Virus record (IMG/VR): IMGVR_UViG_3300044701_004588
Location: 1-24,493 of that record
Length of the DNA: 24,493 nucleotides
Reading direction: 5' to 3' (one strand)
From: a virus
Shown here: positions 6,658-22,513 of the stretch, one piece after another
How positions within the stretch are numbered: position 1 is the first letter of the stretch
How the letters are laid out: each line of letters begins with the position of its first letter
Position numbers and translations under genes: made by a program
Notes under the pieces: model-generated
The model's input: the letters and a program-made list of their open reading frames with translations, nothing else
Told to the model about the DNA's origin: nothing
The model's database searches: none

Positions 6658-6679
6658 AAGAGCTAATGCCTCCTATAGC

Positions 6680-6690
6680 CGAGGTTGCCG
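6680..6690 (-). promoter_or_regulatory. Degenerate copy of the CGGCAACTTAG element before the tape measure gene
   Basis: The minus strand reads CGGCAACCTCG, 9 of 11 matches to the exact element. It ends 22 nt before the GTG of the tape measure gene, within the 18-27 nt spacing of the exact copies. The flanking TTTCC and CGG resemble the plus-strand copy at 9251. Confidence 0.45.
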
Positions 6691-6704
6691 GGGAAACCTT
6701 GGGT

Positions 6705-7097
6705 ATGGCTTCTGCTCTCAGCGCTCTCGCTAACGCAACCGCGACATTCACCGTTGCAGGGACGGGGGTGGTGACGGATCCCACGACTGGCAACGTGACC
6801 CCGGCAACGGCAACTGTGTCTGTGCCCTTGTTCCTTAAGGCGGAGCGGGTGCGGGGTACGGCATTTCCGGGGGTGGAGATGACGGAAACGACGTTTGATG
6901 GCTACGCCCTTGAGGCGCTGGATGAGCGGATTGTTGTTGGGACCGAAGGGACGGTGGTGTTTGGGGGTGCGGATGCGGTGGAGTGTGAGGTGACCGCGTT
7001 GCGCCTGCCCTATGGAAAGACTGGATTGCTCGGGGAGACGCTCGGCGCTGCACTTGGGGAGCGGGTGCAGCTGGTGTCAAGAGAGCAGGTTGGCTGA
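6705..7097 (+). CDS. Putative head closure / head-tail connector protein, inverted relative to the operon
   Basis: This 130-aa protein is rich in Val, Thr and Gly and probably folds as a small beta barrel ('TATVSVPLFLKAERVRGT', 'LDERIVVGTEGTVVF'). It is followed, with a TGATG overlap, by an HK97 gp10-like gene, and head closure genes commonly sit just before that gene. Role and family are inferred from size, fold type and this neighbour. I chose ATG 6705. An in-frame ATG at 6666 would add 13 residues but would overlap the AGGAGG of the divergent tape measure gene. No strong ribosome binding site is visible. The gene is on the plus strand while the surrounding tail genes are on the minus strand, so it cannot share their transcript. 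Confidence 0.6.
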   Translation: MASALSALANATATFTVAGTGVVTDPTTGNVTPATATVSVPLFLKAERVRGTAFPGVEMTETTFDGYALEALDERIVVGTEGTVVFGGADAVECEVTALRLPYGKTGLLGETLGAALGERVQLVSREQVG

Positions 7098-7510
7098 TGG
7101 CGCGGGTTACGCAGTGGAACGCCGATAAGCTGTTGCGCCGTGTGCCGCTGATCCTCACTAACTACGGCATTAAGGTCACGCCCCTGCTGCAGGAGTCGAT
7201 AAAAGCAGAGGTGTATGAGTGGCCGACGACCACACGCAGGAAGAATGGTGAGACAGTCGGCAGCCCACGCAACATCGTAGATACGGGTGAGCTGTTGCGT
7301 TCTCAGTCCGCTCCAAAGGTGCAGGACAATCGCCTGACGATCACTTGGGGGGCGCCGTACTCAGGAGAAGTTCTGCGCGGTGGGTTTTTGGTGGGCACGC
7401 TGCGGAATGCGTACATCGCGCCGGGGCGAGATTGGATTACGCCGGTGCTTAGGGCGGAAGAGCCGATGCGGTTTTTTGTGAAGGAGTGGCGAAAGATTGG
7501 GGGCGCATAA
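7097..7510 (+). CDS. HK97 gp10-like tail completion / head-tail joining protein
   Basis: The protein has 137 aa, the usual length for this family. The central segment 'SPRNIVDTGELLRSQ' matches the conserved 'I-V-D-T-G-x-L-x-x-S' signature of HK97 gp10-like and minor capsid or tail-completion proteins. A C-terminal helix follows a Gly/Pro loop ('APGRDWITPVL'). Such proteins cap the tail tube and join it to the head closure ring. The ATG overlaps the stop of the preceding gene, so the two form a two-gene plus-strand unit. Downstream is a hairpin with a T-run on the opposite strand only. The family call is fairly secure; the exact assembly step is inferred. Confidence 0.75.
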   Translation: MARVTQWNADKLLRRVPLILTNYGIKVTPLLQESIKAEVYEWPTTTRRKNGETVGSPRNIVDTGELLRSQSAPKVQDNRLTITWGAPYSGEVLRGGFLVGTLRNAYIAPGRDWITPVLRAEEPMRFFVKEWRKIGGA

Positions 7511-7538
7511 AAGCCCGCCACCCCGTGGGGTAGCGGGC
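7509..7538 (-). terminator. Intrinsic terminator after the tail tube gene
   Basis: On the minus strand a GC-rich stem (GCCCGC and CCCC pairing with GGGG and GCGGGC, one mismatch) is followed by TTTT, 20 bp after the tail tube stop. On the plus strand the stem follows the gp10-like gene directly but lacks a T-run, so it may act weakly in that direction too. Confidence 0.8.
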
Positions 7539-7558: not shown

Positions 7559-8038
7559 TCAGGCGTTGGTTTCAGCGCTCCAGGTGTAGCTGCCGTAGCC
7601 GGTGAGGGTGAAGGTCACCTGGGCCACGTTGCCGGCGGCAATCGACTCGGAGAAGTCGGTCACCCATGCAACGCCGGAGTGGTACTCAGGGCTGCCAGTG
7701 GTGCTCATCTCGGGCGATTCGCGATACCACTCAACGGTGGTGCCGGATGCAGCGTTGAGGGCTGCGTTCTTCAGAACGGCGTAGCCGGCGTCGTTCAGGT
7801 TGAGGTTCATCGACATCGGGATCGTGTAGCTCTGCTGCTGCACGATGGATGCGGTGAAGCCAAGGGTGCTGCCGTAATCCAGCACATCCTGGGTTTGAGT
7901 TGAGCCCTGGATCGAAGCGTCAGTGAGGGACAGCACCTCGGTCATGCCGGTGCTGGCGGTGGGGTTGGTGGAAGCGGTGGTGCCCGCCTTCACGTAGAAC
8001 CTGTAGCCGAGGCTATTAAAAAAGGCACCAGTGGCCAT
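7559..8038 (-). CDS. Major tail tube protein
   Basis: This 159-aa Thr/Ser/Ala-rich beta protein has the look of the lambda gpV / TP901-1 tail tube group. It starts with 'MATGAFFNSLGYRFYV' and ends with 'VAQVTFTLTGYGSYTW', a typical final strand pair of tube proteins. It polymerises into the tail tube around the tape measure. An exact CGGCAACTTAG element ends 23 nt before the ATG, and a strong terminator follows the stop. It may therefore be transcribed alone at high level, as expected for a protein needed in very many copies. Only one tube gene and no sheath gene are present, which supports siphovirus morphology. Confidence 0.85.
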   Translation of the reverse strand: MATGAFFNSLGYRFYVKAGTTASTNPTASTGMTEVLSLTDASIQGSTQTQDVLDYGSTLGFTASIVQQQSYTIPMSMNLNLNDAGYAVLKNAALNAASGTTVEWYRESPEMSTTGSPEYHSGVAWVTDFSESIAAGNVAQVTFTLTGYGSYTWSAETNA

Positions 8039-8061: not shown

Positions 8062-8072
8062 CTAAGTTGCCG
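8062..8072 (-). promoter_or_regulatory. CGGCAACTTAG element before the tail tube gene
   Basis: Exact 11-bp copy ending 23 nt before ATG 8038. Its last ten bases also encode the end of the sigma-like gene (Ala-Thr-stop). Two other exact copies do not end a gene, so the conservation is probably at the DNA or RNA level. Confidence 0.6.
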
Positions 8073-8619
8073 CTTCGCCTTGCTCTAATAACTCCCACGG
8101 TGTGGCGCGGGGGCAGATGTGGAGGTCGAAGCCGCGGATGTCGTGGTCCGTGGGGCTGGTGGCCACAAGCGCCAGTTTCAACTGCTCCTCCGTGATCTCA
8201 AGCGCTATCAACACCTCCTCACGGGTGCTGCCGCGGTCCAGCATCTTGCGGGCGAGCTGGCCGTTGCGGCGTACGGCGCCGGGGGCCTTCACCAGCCAGT
8301 TGTGGTCGCGGATGAAGTGCAACACGTCGCCTTCAGCGAAGACGGTGAGAAGCGTGGAAAAGGTTCCCTTGGCGGGCTGCCAGGCGCGACACGTCTTGAT
8401 AAAGGCTTGGTCGATGCACGAAAACACATCCTCTGCTGAGACAAAGGGGTATTTCCTGCATAACTTGCGGCCCATGAGGCGCAAAAGGCCCTGGTGCTCG
8501 CGGTACATCGCGGCGATGCGGCGCTGCTCGTCGCGGGTGAGTGGGGTCGCCAAGTAGCCGGTGCGGGGGCGGTGGCGCGCACCGGTGGGGGCGGATGACT
8601 GGGTGGCAACCTGAGCCAT
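8062..8619 (-). CDS. Sigma-70-like transcription factor lacking region 4
   Basis: The protein has 185 aa. Residues about 41-107 fit sigma region 2: 'HQGLLRLMGRKL', then an 'AEDVFSCIDQAFIKTCRAW' helix, then 'GTFSTLLTVFAEGDVLHFIR', comparable with the conserved 'D-L-x-Q-E-G-x-x-G-L' and 'G-T-F-S-T-Y-A-x-x-x-I-R' segments. Residues about 108-152 fit region 3, including 'STREEVLIALEITEEQLKLA'. Only about 30 residues follow, so no region 4 (-35 recognition) is present. Small phage late sigma factors such as T4 gp55 also lack a normal region 4. It would direct host RNA polymerase to phage promoters. It lies between the head-tail adaptor and tail tube genes, an uncommon place for a sigma gene. Family assignment is from motif reading only. 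Confidence 0.75.
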   Translation of the reverse strand: MAQVATQSSAPTGARHRPRTGYLATPLTRDEQRRIAAMYREHQGLLRLMGRKLCRKYPFVSAEDVFSCIDQAFIKTCRAWQPAKGTFSTLLTVFAEGDVLHFIRDHNWLVKAPGAVRRNGQLARKMLDRGSTREEVLIALEITEEQLKLALVATSPTDHDIRGFDLHICPRATPWELLEQGEAAT

Positions 8620-8651: not shown

Positions 8652-9221
8652 TCAGCTGCGGGTGATCGCGACCGCGCCGCCAATGCCGCCGCCCGTGGAG
8701 CTGGTGGTGAGACAGCCCAAAATAGTGGCGAGGTGGGGCAGCACTGTCAGTGGGGTGACGGCTTTTGTCGTGCTGTTGCCCACGTTGGTGTTCCACTCCA
8801 GCTCCATTACGTCCAGCTTCAGACGCTTGAGGTCGCGGTTGGGAACGCCGGTGACGAGGGCGCTGGTGGTGGGGCTGTTGCGCAGCAGGGTGGGGTCGCT
8901 GAGCAGTGCGTTGGCGAGGTCGAAGGTGGCGAGCTCGACTTCGCGCGGGATTGTGGTGGTGCTGGGGGTTTTGTCGCCGCAGCTGGCGTCAGCGCGGGGC
9001 CAGGCCAACGCTTGGGTTGTGGTTGCGCGACTGCCGATCCAACTCAGTGTTTCGAGGCCGTTGGTTGCAGTCACCAGCGCTTTCGCTTTGTTGTCGGCGC
9101 TGGCGCTGCTCCACGCAAGCGTGCCCACCATGCCGTCGGCGATGCTGTCTGCAGCAGCAACGGTTAGGTAGCTGTTGGCGTCGGCGGCGCCGGCCGTCGC
9201 AACAATCGTGGGCGCAGACAT
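8652..9221 (-). CDS. DnaT-like head-tail adaptor
   Basis: The 189-aa sequence has the pattern of the phage 'DnaT-like' family that occupies the head-tail adaptor position. It begins with 'GAADANSYLTVAAADSIADG', then 'KAKALVTATNGLETLSWIGS', a 'LAWPRADA' motif and 'IPREVELATFDLANALL'. Such proteins are mostly helical and form the ring under the portal. Despite the family name, no DNA-binding role is needed here. The ATG at 9221 is 60 bp from the divergent plus-strand ATG at 9282. The next minus-strand gene, the sigma-like factor, starts 32 bp downstream across a CCTAGG-containing spacer. Confidence 0.78.
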   Translation of the reverse strand: MSAPTIVATAGAADANSYLTVAAADSIADGMVGTLAWSSASADNKAKALVTATNGLETLSWIGSRATTTQALAWPRADASCGDKTPSTTTIPREVELATFDLANALLSDPTLLRNSPTTSALVTGVPNRDLKRLKLDVMELEWNTNVGNSTTKAVTPLTVLPHLATILGCLTTSSTGGGIGGAVAITRS

Positions 9222-9250
9222 CGCTTGGGCGCTTTATCCGAGCTTTCCGG

Positions 9251-9261
9251 GGGCAACTTCG
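9251..9261 (+). promoter_or_regulatory. Plus-strand copy of the CGGCAACTTAG element
   Basis: The plus strand reads GGGCAACTTCG (9 of 11). It ends 20 nt before ATG 9282, which is on the same strand. This supports 9282 as the start and shows that the element follows gene direction. Confidence 0.5.
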
Positions 9262-9281: not shown

Positions 9282-9554
9282 ATGAGCGAACAAGACAACG
9301 CAGCCGGCGCTAGGGCGCCCAAGAAGAAAGTGGCGAAGAAAGAAGAGGTGGGTGTTGCTGGGGTGCGGAAGTGGGAAGATGTTGTGCCCAAGATTCGGGA
9401 GATGAAGGAATCGGGGGCGACGGTGCCGGAGATTGCAGAGAAGCTGGAGCTCAGCTATGTGCTGGTGAATCAGGTGATGCTGCAGAGCTACAAGATGTCC
9501 GTGGACACCATTGGGGTGTTTGAACGGCAAGAGCGGATGCGGTTGGGGCTGTGA
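9282..9554 (+). CDS. Small HTH-containing protein on the opposite strand of the head operon
   Basis: The 90-aa protein has a Lys-rich N-terminus ('APKKKVAKKEE') and a probable helix-turn-helix at about residues 47-72 ('GATVPEIAEKLELSYVLVNQ'). The frame is open upstream to 9225. I prefer ATG 9282 because the GGGCAACTTCG element lies 20 nt before it and the extra residues look like translated spacer. It overlaps the next gene by TGATG. It could be a regulator of late transcription or a small connector protein. No family is recognised. Confidence 0.68.
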   Translation: MSEQDNAAGARAPKKKVAKKEEVGVAGVRKWEDVVPKIREMKESGATVPEIAEKLELSYVLVNQVMLQSYKMSVDTIGVFERQERMRLGL

Positions 9555-9754: not shown

Positions 9755-9776
9755 AAAAGCCCCGCCGAAGCGGGGC
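9753..9776 (-). terminator. Intrinsic terminator after the major capsid gene
   Basis: On the minus strand the stem GCCCCGC with loop TTCG pairs with GCGGGGC and is followed by TTTTTT. It lies 18 bp after the capsid stop. The T-run overlaps the stop codon of the plus-strand gene ending at 9754. Confidence 0.92.
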
Positions 9777-9793
9777 CGGGGCGCAAGAGGCGA

Positions 9794-11651: not shown

Positions 11652-11662
11652 CTAAGTTGCCG
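11652..11662 (-). promoter_or_regulatory. CGGCAACTTAG element before the scaffold gene
   Basis: Exact 11-bp copy in the 42-bp spacer after the MuF-like gene, ending 21 nt before ATG 11630. It does not form part of a stop codon of the upstream gene. Confidence 0.65.
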
Positions 11663-14392: not shown

Positions 14393-14429
14393 GCGCTACG
14401 CCAAATACAGGTGCTAATACGAGGTTTCC

Positions 14430-18627: not shown

Positions 18628-18779
18628 TCGGCCCACAATCCGCCCGGATCACAATTGTGATCCCGGCCAGTGTTGCTGAGCGATTAAAGGTTCAGGCGGA
18701 AGCGCAGGGGCGGAGCATGTCGAACCTGGCAGCCCGCCTGATCGCCCTTGCATTTGAGCAGGATCGGCGCGATGGCTGA
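18624..18779 (+). CDS. Ribbon-helix-helix DNA-binding protein, 51 aa
   Basis: A short gene with an ATGA overlap to the previous gene and an 8-bp overlap with the next. The product 'SARITIVIPASVAERLKVQA' followed by 'EAQGRSMSNLAARLIALAFE' is a textbook MetJ/Arc-type fold: one strand ('RITIVIP'), helix A, a 'G-R-S-M-S-N-L' turn and helix B. It probably binds DNA as a dimer and may control the cassette. Tandem or palindromic sites nearby (16163-16177, 19562-19580) are possible targets, by inference only. Confidence 0.78.
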   Translation: MIGPQSARITIVIPASVAERLKVQAEAQGRSMSNLAARLIALAFEQDRRDG

Positions 18780-19194
18780 GCGCGCCACTGACGCGCAACG
18801 GGCCGCGCGTGAACGCGACGCGCTGGAGCTTCTCAGCTCTGGCGCCGGTTCCGCGTTTGCCGCGGCCACCCTCGCCGAACGGTACGGGGTGAGCCTGCGC
18901 CAGGCGCGCCGGTACGTTGCGGCCGCATCGTTCGAATTGTGCGATGCCGCCACGCCCGCCGAATTGGATCGGCAGGCGATGCTCTCCCTCCATCGCTTGG
19001 ATCTCATCGCGGGCCGTGCCATGGCTGCTGGGGATGAGAGCCTCGCGGTGCGCGCTACGCGGGCGCACGCCGCAGCCCTGGCGCAGTTCCGGCGCGCAAT
19101 CTCCGCGCCCGTAACGCGCTTCAGACTGCCCACAACGCAGGCGCCGCCCGGGGCGCAGGAGCCGGTGCAGGTGCCCGCGGACTGCCCCTTTTGA
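18772..19194 (+). CDS. HTH protein resembling a small terminase subunit
   Basis: The 140-aa protein starts at ATG 18772, overlapping the RHH gene. An upstream in-frame codon at 18748 is unlikely. Residues about 15-55 form an HTH ('AATLAERYGVSLRQARRYVA'), followed by helices ('AMLSLHRLDLIAGRAMAAGD', 'AVRATRAHAAALAQFRRAIS') and a Pro-rich tail. Many phage small terminases have this layout, with an N-terminal 'Y-G-V-S-x-R-Q-A-x-R-Y' recognition helix and a helical oligomerisation core. A second protein of similar layout is encoded on the minus strand at 19932-20351. Which one packages DNA cannot be told. A regulator is the alternative. A terminator-like hairpin follows 4 bp after the stop. Confidence 0.65.
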   Translation: MAERATDAQRAARERDALELLSSGAGSAFAAATLAERYGVSLRQARRYVAAASFELCDAATPAELDRQAMLSLHRLDLIAGRAMAAGDESLAVRATRAHAAALAQFRRAISAPVTRFRLPTTQAPPGAQEPVQVPADCPF

Positions 19195-19931: not shown

Positions 19932-20351
19932 TCAGATGCCCTTGGCTTTGACGAGCTGGAGCAGGTCCGCCTGCAGTTTCATGGCGCCGATGGCGTTGGC
20001 GCCCATGTTGCGCTCGATGCTCATCTGAATGACGGTTTCGAGCTTCTCGATCATCTCGCTCACCTTTTCTGCGCGATCCATCACGTTGATGTCGCGGATC
20101 ATTTGCTGGCGGGCGGCGGCCATCCGGTGCTCAGCAGTGCGGGTCGCTATCCCCCACCTGTCTGCGCAGCGCTGCCGGATCTGGTTCGGGCGGTAACCCT
20201 CGCTGAGCCAGTCCTGCACAATGCGGACTTGCTCTGCGATTTCGAGCGCAGTGAATGCCTGGCGGCGACGGGGCACGTCCTCCGGGTTGGCTGGGGCGGG
20301 GTTGCCAAAATCCGCTAGCTGGGCGTCGGTGCTCTCGTCGGCCATCGGCAT
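19932..20351 (-). CDS. Putative terminase small subunit
   Basis: The 139-aa protein has an HTH at about residues 37-72 ('EIAEQVRIVQDWLSEGYRPN', then 'CADRWGIATRTAEHRMAAAR') and a helical C-terminal core ('AEKVSEMIEKLETVIQMSIE', then 'GAMKLQADLLQLVKAKG'). This is the layout of cyanophage-type small terminases that recognise the packaging site and oligomerise. It lies on the same strand as the large terminase but 4.1 kb upstream of it. The start is ATG 20351; ATG 20345 (MADES) is also possible. An exact CGGCAACTTAG element ends 27 nt before 20351. The stop is followed by the AGTGAATGCG repeats. Confidence 0.72.
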   Translation of the reverse strand: MPMADESTDAQLADFGNPAPANPEDVPRRRQAFTALEIAEQVRIVQDWLSEGYRPNQIRQRCADRWGIATRTAEHRMAAARQQMIRDINVMDRAEKVSEMIEKLETVIQMSIERNMGANAIGAMKLQADLLQLVKAKGI

Positions 20352-20378: not shown

Positions 20379-20389
20379 CTAAGTTGCCG
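20379..20389 (-). promoter_or_regulatory. CGGCAACTTAG element before the small terminase gene
   Basis: Exact 11-bp copy ending 27 nt before ATG 20351. Its end also encodes the last codons and TAG stop of the upstream 70-aa gene. Confidence 0.6.
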
Positions 20390-20591
20390 ACCCCTGACGC
20401 AGCTGTTGAATGATCTCGCGGTATTTGCGGGGCAGCGTCGCTAAATCGCGTTGGTGAATGGTTGTGTGCCCCCGGCGTATTAGCTCCGCGTGATACATGA
20501 ATTGCCCGTAAGCATCGTTGCGCTCCGCGATGTTGGCGCGGGCGTAGCGCTCAATGGCGCTGGCGGCGGCCTTGTTGCTGGGGCGCGACAT
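20379..20591 (-). CDS. Small hypothetical protein upstream of the small terminase
   Basis: The 70-aa protein is basic and helical ('AAASAIERYARANIAERNDA', 'TLPRKYREIIQQLRQG'). No family is recognised. Its C-terminus, 'GSAT' plus stop, is written by the CGGCAACTTAG element, as is the 'EAAT' end of the sigma-like gene. A second exact element ends 18 nt before its own ATG. It may be a small DNA-binding or packaging-related protein, from position only. Confidence 0.68.
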   Translation of the reverse strand: MSRPSNKAAASAIERYARANIAERNDAYGQFMYHAELIRRGHTTIHQRDLATLPRKYREIIQQLRQGSAT

Positions 20592-20609: not shown

Positions 20610-20620
20610 CTAAGTTGCCG
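20610..20620 (-). promoter_or_regulatory. CGGCAACTTAG element before the 70-aa gene
   Basis: Exact 11-bp copy in an 80-bp intergenic spacer, ending 18 nt before ATG 20591. It is not part of any coding sequence I accept. Confidence 0.65.
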
Positions 20621-22070: not shown

Positions 22071-22274
22071 CTACTGATTCAGCAGGGCTGTGGTGATGGC
22101 GTCGATGGAGGCGTCGCTGAGGTACAGCGACTTGGCAATGCTTTGGGCTTTGACGGCTGTGCGCAGAGCCAAGGCGTTGGCGATGGCGTCTGCGTCCAGC
22201 TCGTTGATGGATGCCGCTAGCTGCTCCTCCTCCTGGCTGAGACCGTCCTGAAGGTCGTCGAGGAGGTGTTTCAC
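22071..22274 (-). CDS. 67-aa hypothetical acidic protein
   Basis: The start is GTG 22274, overlapping the stop of the upstream gene (GTGA). The protein is acidic and helical ('LLDDLQDGLSQEEEQLAASI', 'ADAIANALALRTAVKAQSIA'), with no cysteine and no known motif. It ends 3 bp before the exonuclease gene and is probably co-translated with it. Confidence 0.65.
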   Translation of the reverse strand: MKHLLDDLQDGLSQEEEQLAASINELDADAIANALALRTAVKAQSIAKSLYLSDASIDAITTALLNQ

Positions 22275-22513
22275 GCGGGTGTAGGTACAGCTTTGTACGA
22301 GGTTGCCGCTGGGCGGACGACGACCACGACAACCGCGCTCTCACCTGTGTTTTTGGTGTAGAGGCGGCACGCCTTGTGGCAGGCGTCGAGATCGACCCAT
22401 TCCTGCGCTTCCTCTGGAAAGCGTGTCCAGTGCTGGTCCGCGCCGGGGCGTTGGTGGGCCTCGGCGCGGTAGTACCCGCGTGCTGTTTTGATCAGGTAGC
22501 GGGTGACATACAT
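22271..22513 (-). CDS. 80-aa hypothetical protein
   Basis: I prefer ATG 22513 ('MYVTRYLIKTARGYYRAEAH'), since similar short phage proteins begin in this way. The frame stays open to a GTG at 22717, which would give 148 aa, but the extra 68 residues look less like a folded protein. The C-terminal part has 'WVDLDACHKACRLYTKN' and 'SAVVVVVVRP'. Overlap of its stop with the next GTG supports expression. No function is recognised. With the short start, 22514-22733 is a 220-bp leader without an obvious gene. Confidence 0.6.
   Translation of the reverse strand: MYVTRYLIKTARGYYRAEAHQRPGADQHWTRFPEEAQEWVDLDACHKACRLYTKNTGESAVVVVVVRPAATSYKAVPTPA

Follow-up and report, generated by a model that had tools for sequence, protein, structure and literature searches.

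Small phage sigma factors that act on promoters without a -35 element are known from T4. Its gp55 has sigma-70 similarity centred on domain 2 and serves late promoters that consist of nothing but a -10 element (PMC2988020). In Staphylococcus phage K, too, the late promoters were described as having a -10 element but no conserved -35, without identification of the phage factor involved (PMC11598898). Among bacterial sigma factors, SigB reads the -10 element GGGWAW as double-stranded DNA with its regions 2 and 3 (PMC11156646). For cyanobacterial phages of the kind studied here, only sigma-70-type promoters had been predicted before in the openly licensed literature. In the following, a promoter and its likely sigma factor are proposed for this widespread phage group, in which a ten-letter start signal and a cut-down sigma factor occur together. 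The motif appears to be new within the openly licensed literature that was covered, and an earlier report is possible. After T4 gp55, the sigma factor would be the second example of a phage sigma that lacks region 4, apparently with an independent origin, and such proteins help to ask how the polymerase starts without contact to a -35.

The sigma gene was found in the window, i.e. the whole analysed stretch of 24,493 nucleotides, as an intact ORF with an ATG start encoding 185 amino acids. Its product is a sigma-70 family protein with region 2 and a reduced region 3 and without region 4. Pfam Sigma70_r2 (region 2) matched residues 38-108 with E=1.7e-4, slightly below the gathering score, and was matched by 40 of 48 members of the sigma family. 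The PHROG_351 sigma family matched residues 35-153 (E=1.1e-9). The AlphaFold2 model of the protein had a mean pLDDT of 72. Residues 29-107 of the model superposed on region 2 of SigE (2.2 Å over 77 residues) and of E. coli sigma70 (2.1 Å over 76 residues) and thus fall on region 2 of solved sigma factors, where an earlier note made from the DNA letters had placed residues 41-107. Residues 27-158 superposed more loosely on regions 2-3 of SigB, and the modelled C-terminus (about residues 159-185) was of low confidence and was left unmatched. With Foldseek, the top matches of the model were sigma factors, but they were weak, with a best E-value of 0.0019 and nothing below 0.001. Region 3 is reduced but present and aligns in sequence and model with SigB/SigF to about residue 148-158. 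The regions 2 and 3 that had been read in the protein before were confirmed, region 3 in its reduced form. SigB/SigF (group 3) were its closest relatives by profile and structure, the similarity being weak but consistent.

The lack of region 4 was confirmed, as none was detected across the 48 family members and only about 25-30 residues remain after region 3, too few for such a region. These last residues are conserved in the family, H159, F164, C169-P170-R171 and P174 being invariant, and a short helix containing hydrophobic and acidic residues forms the end of the tail. The position of the gene between adaptor and tail tube genes was likewise corroborated, both neighbours being recognised by PHROG matches (Table 1). 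The capsid kin of the window virus include S-2L, KBS-S-2A and MED4-184, and its host is probably a cyanobacterium, judging from its cyanophage relatives only.

Table 1. Sigma gene, neighbouring genes, terminator-like hairpins and element sites in the window.
Feature	Position	Strand	Remarks
Sigma factor gene	8062-8619	-	Regions 2 and 3, without region 4; conserved C-terminal tail (about residues 155-185)
Head-tail adaptor Ad1 gene	8652-9221	-	PHROG_477, E=1e-29; upstream neighbour of the sigma gene
Tail tube gene	7559-8038	-	Tail PHROG, E=1.6e-12; behind element 8062-8072
Terminator-like hairpin	9758-9777	-	After the major capsid gene
Terminator-like hairpin	7513-7538	-	After the tail tube gene
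Element CGGCAACTTAG	8062-8072	-	Over the sigma stop codon; 23 nt before tail tube ATG (8038)
Element CGGCAACTTAG	11652-11662	-	21 nt before scaffold ATG (11630)
Element CGGCAACTTAG	20379-20389	-	27 nt before terS-like ATG (20351); overlaps the stop of ORF 20379-20591
Element CGGCAACTTAG	20610-20620	-	18 nt before ATG (20591) of a 70-aa ORF
Variant element GGAAAGCTCG	9239-9248	-	17 nt before adaptor ATG (9221); candidate promoter for the unit of adaptor and sigma genes
Variant element GGAAACCTCG	14420-14429	-	27 nt before portal GTG (14392)
Variant element GGCAACCTCG	6680-6689	-	22 nt before GTG (6657) of the probable tape measure gene
Variant element GGCAACCTCG	22298-22307	-	23 nt before GTG (22274) of ORF 22071-22274
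Variant element GGCAACTTCG	9252-9261	+	20 nt before HTH-like ATG (9282); back to back with 9239-9248

The sequence CGGCAACTTAG occurs in the window in four exact copies, all on the minus (late) strand and 18-27 nt ahead of ATG codons, while only 0.36 copies are expected by chance even with one mismatch allowed. A chance repeat was ruled out by this count and by column-permutation controls. Variants were located with a position-weight scan that had been trained without the window. They fit GGNAANYTNG, so that position 8 of the element is A or C and not strictly A. The scan also matched one site inside the capsid gene and, on the plus strand, a site at 6692 only 3 nt ahead of a start codon. No sigma-70-type promoter was found in the window between 7000 and 21000.

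According to the earlier note, the sigma gene ends within the element. The copy at this place does include the stop codon, but the overlap is incidental because the element of relatives falls inside the sigma gene, across its stop or past its end. The sigma is encoded in 80 IMG/VR loci with 56-98% identity, most of which keep the element ahead of the tail tube gene as GG(C/A)AANYTAG. As it is kept there at shifting distances from the sigma stop, the element is selected as DNA. The same shifts ruled out that it results from the coding sequence in which the sigma gene ends.

In 13 larger records, picked because they carry this sigma, GGNAANYTAG matched the late strand 103 times and the opposite strand seven times. 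The count in 400 column permutations was 8.9 ± 5.4 with a maximum of 34; sites in different records are not independent since the records are related. A called gene start lay downstream of 101 of the 110 sites, mostly at 17-27 nt (random expectation 7.6%), gene starts in these records being called by a simple codon-usage script. The element stood ahead of the tail tube gene in 13/13, of the scaffold gene in 10/12 and, as the exact element, of the adaptor gene in 8/13 records, with roughly 6-10 exact matches per record. Three records were mapped, and their elements are located within the terminase-to-lysis block; none was found in the replication block or ahead of the gene of a second, RpoD-like sigma. 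When 505 dereplicated gene starts of sigma-bearing records were searched for motifs without prior input, the motif was recovered ahead of 26% of them, whereas nothing coherent came from the records of sigma-less relatives. An enrichment in the sigma-less records G020 and G023 was only apparent, with matches inside genes and not before starts, and no sigma domain was found when the two were searched for one.

Upstream of the element, no conserved sequence could be detected among 181 dereplicated sites, and a -35 is therefore lacking. This agrees with the earlier suggestion of a target of the -10 type only, the sites being putative promoters. At the same sites A was preferred at position 14 (55%) and position 16 (40%), the first G being counted as 0. 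The motifs of the cultured cyanobacterial phages S-CBS2, S-CRES1 and P-SS2 strongly kept G0, G1, A3, C6 and T7, followed by A8. Their constancy favours A3 as -11, T7 as -7 and position 14 near +1, which would put the GG at -14/-13 and the preferred A at or near the predicted start site. The SigB structure, with G at -15 and -14 and A at -11 (PMC11156646), gives a numbering that moves the site by one, and the data fit either. In a gapless phmmer alignment with SigB, R100, which contacts -14G, corresponds to the invariant R104 of the phage sigma and R97 to the invariant H101. The structural analogy is incomplete, as R110, which contacts -15G, has G114 as its counterpart. An ECF-type -35 (GGAAC-like) was ruled out for the element, which is too near to the start codons.

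From these comparisons it is quite probable that the protein is a phage late sigma factor which reads -10-only promoters and is itself expressed from one. Limited to regions 2 and 3, it would associate with the core of the host RNA polymerase and guide the enzyme to promoters in which only the -10-type sequence GG(A/C)AA(C)(C/T)T(A/c)G is conserved, mostly 17-27 nt ahead of the start codons of late genes. Adaptor, sigma and then tail tube gene would form a unit headed by the element at 9239-9248, so that production of the sigma would become self-reinforcing once late transcription begins. The positive feedback loop of the earlier note thus has the variant element that it requires ahead of the adaptor-sigma unit, the autoregulation itself being a prediction.

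The best reading of the sequence data is that the window sigma would work like T4 gp55, the likeness being one of predicted function. Both are small phage sigma factors with target promoters, putative ones in the present case, that lack a -35. No gp55 family was among the PHROG or Pfam matches to the window sigma; gp55 is very diverged and was compared through families only. The window sigma differs from gp55 in its region 3, its SigB/SigF-like sequence and its element GG(A/C)AANYTAG. Hence, from the gp55-type reading in the earlier note, a late sigma without region 4 and a -10-type target are favoured by the comparison, whereas the sequence is nearer to SigB/SigF. The -10 element of SigB begins with GG as well, but SigB/SigF also possess region 4 and use a -35 element, and the window family has neither. 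The late promoters of Staphylococcus phage K resemble the putative ones of the window family in lacking a conserved -35 and differ in their -10 sequence.

How such a sigma would initiate was considered in two forms. Somewhat tentatively, we propose a two-domain sigma (regions 2 and 3) that reads a GG-starting -10, needs neither region 4 nor a mimic of it and initiates alone, with its conserved tail either doing what region 4 does elsewhere or linking the enzyme to the replication clamp. If true, this would define a class of late transcription common to marine and freshwater cyanosiphoviruses. A variant of the same explanation, possible but more doubtful, is that reading of the element by the sigma requires a sliding clamp or a partner in place of region 4, as in T4, where gp55 works with gp33 and gp45. 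T4 late transcription runs that way (PMC2988020), and the C-terminal tail of the sigma, with its short hydrophobic and acidic helix, is loosely like the clamp-binding tail of gp55. However, no sigma-specific partner, whether a gp33 counterpart or a clamp, was identified among the genes conserved with the window sigma: the other sigma-only cluster (11 records) resembles a tail protein, and small HTH genes are present in sigma-less relatives too. None of the genes confined to sigma-bearing records suits the part of a gp33-type partner that would supply region 4 in trans.

The association of sigma and element was compared in capsid-matched loci. The element was present in 96/96 loci with the sigma and in 2/36 without it, each of the two having a single match. 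In one locus, L145, the tail tube gene (82% identical product) directly adjoins the adaptor gene, yet neither the sigma nor the element is present in its 20-kb record. The independent events behind the association are few because the sigma label requires about three changes on the capsid tree. The sigma was the sole gene cluster present in 13/13 sigma-bearing and 0/12 sigma-less records, a count that is descriptive since the records were chosen by the sigma gene.

The presence of a full-length, RpoD-like sigma is associated with the element nearly as closely. It occurs in 11/13 sigma-bearing records, the other two being fragments, and in 1/12 others. The element could accordingly be a promoter read by this RpoD-like phage sigma or another co-inherited regulator, while the small sigma would, for example, modulate the core enzyme. 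We regard this as improbable. G021 and KBS-S-2A, which are the only records that set the two sigma factors apart, possess the RpoD-like homologue without the late sigma and have elements only at chance level. In addition, the element lacks the -35 normally used by a full-length sigma, and the RpoD-like gene itself has no element ahead in the mapped records. The RpoD-like protein comprises regions 1.2 to 4 and is encoded on the strand opposite to the late genes (799-1812 in L241; also in G001-G009, G011, G012 and G021). Its presence in most of the larger sigma-bearing records suggests a two-sigma cascade, in which it may act at an earlier stage.

It is very improbable that the element is no promoter but a signal for translation or RNA processing within late message leaders. 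It does lie close ahead of start codons, but it is unlike a Shine-Dalgarno sequence, most genes lack it, as does the early block, it stands back to back on opposite strands ahead of divergent genes, and it is absent from sigma-less relatives, which must translate late genes too.

The preferred reading of a late sigma with -10-only promoters extends to cultured cyanosiphoviruses. The nearest sigma factors among annotated phages were P-SS2 gp003, S-CBS2 gp077 and those of S-CRES1-3 (gp20 in S-CRES1). Those of P-SS2, S-CBS2 and S-CRES1, which are SigF-like ('type III / rpoS'), are homologous to the window sigma over regions 2-3 with about 32-36% identity. They differ in their longer C-termini and in being encoded after terL. 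In the P-SS2 and S-CRES1 proteins, Pfam matched region 2 only and no region 4, although the longer C-termini might hide a diverged one. Motif searches on the annotated gene starts of S-CBS2, S-CRES1 and P-SS2 gave TnGGnAnnCTAG-like motifs with log-likelihood ratios of 106, 99 and 92, compared to shuffle maxima of 46, 44 and 51. As in the window family, these are -10-only motifs of the GGnA..YTAG type ahead of genes, and no conserved -35 was found at the sites picked by the pattern; in contrast to the window family, position 4 is not fixed as A. In KBS-S-2A, which has an RpoD-type sigma only, the ratio was 48 versus 39 for the shuffle and the same kind of motif was absent. No description of a -10-only promoter for P-SS2, S-CBS2 or S-CRES1 was found in the openly licensed literature. 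Given the homology in regions 2-3 and the motif, it is proposed here that the SigF-like late sigma factors of cyanosiphoviruses form a group with the window sigma. Start sites and late operons can thereby be predicted for cultured P-SS2, S-CBS2 and S-CRES phages, so that the predictions are testable at once.

Further observations concern the phages and the surroundings of the late genes. An integrase-like gene (cluster 56, a tyrosine recombinase by eye) was seen in six sigma-bearing records (G001, G002, G004, G009, G011 and G012), which suggests that some of these phages are temperate. A sigma with 92% identity is encoded at 1602-2156 of L290, a 3.3-kb contig binned with a Rhodoferax metagenome-assembled genome. 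It was the sole genome match, and a prophage in a sequenced host was discarded, the contig being probably a mis-binned phage fragment. Between the tail tube and tape measure genes, two genes opposite to the late strand (6666-7510, plus strand in the window) recur in almost every sigma-bearing record. They matched no family, and the first has a divergent element ahead in several relatives. A small HTH-like gene (9282-9554, plus strand) lies by the gap between capsid and adaptor genes, opposite to the late genes, and was found in 6 sigma-bearing and 12 sigma-less records. Finally, the genes at 18748-19194 (plus strand) and 19932-20351 (minus strand) belong to a single sequence cluster but lie on opposite strands; one has an element ahead, and the other is weakly similar to the late transcriptional activator family PHROG_836 (E=0.002).
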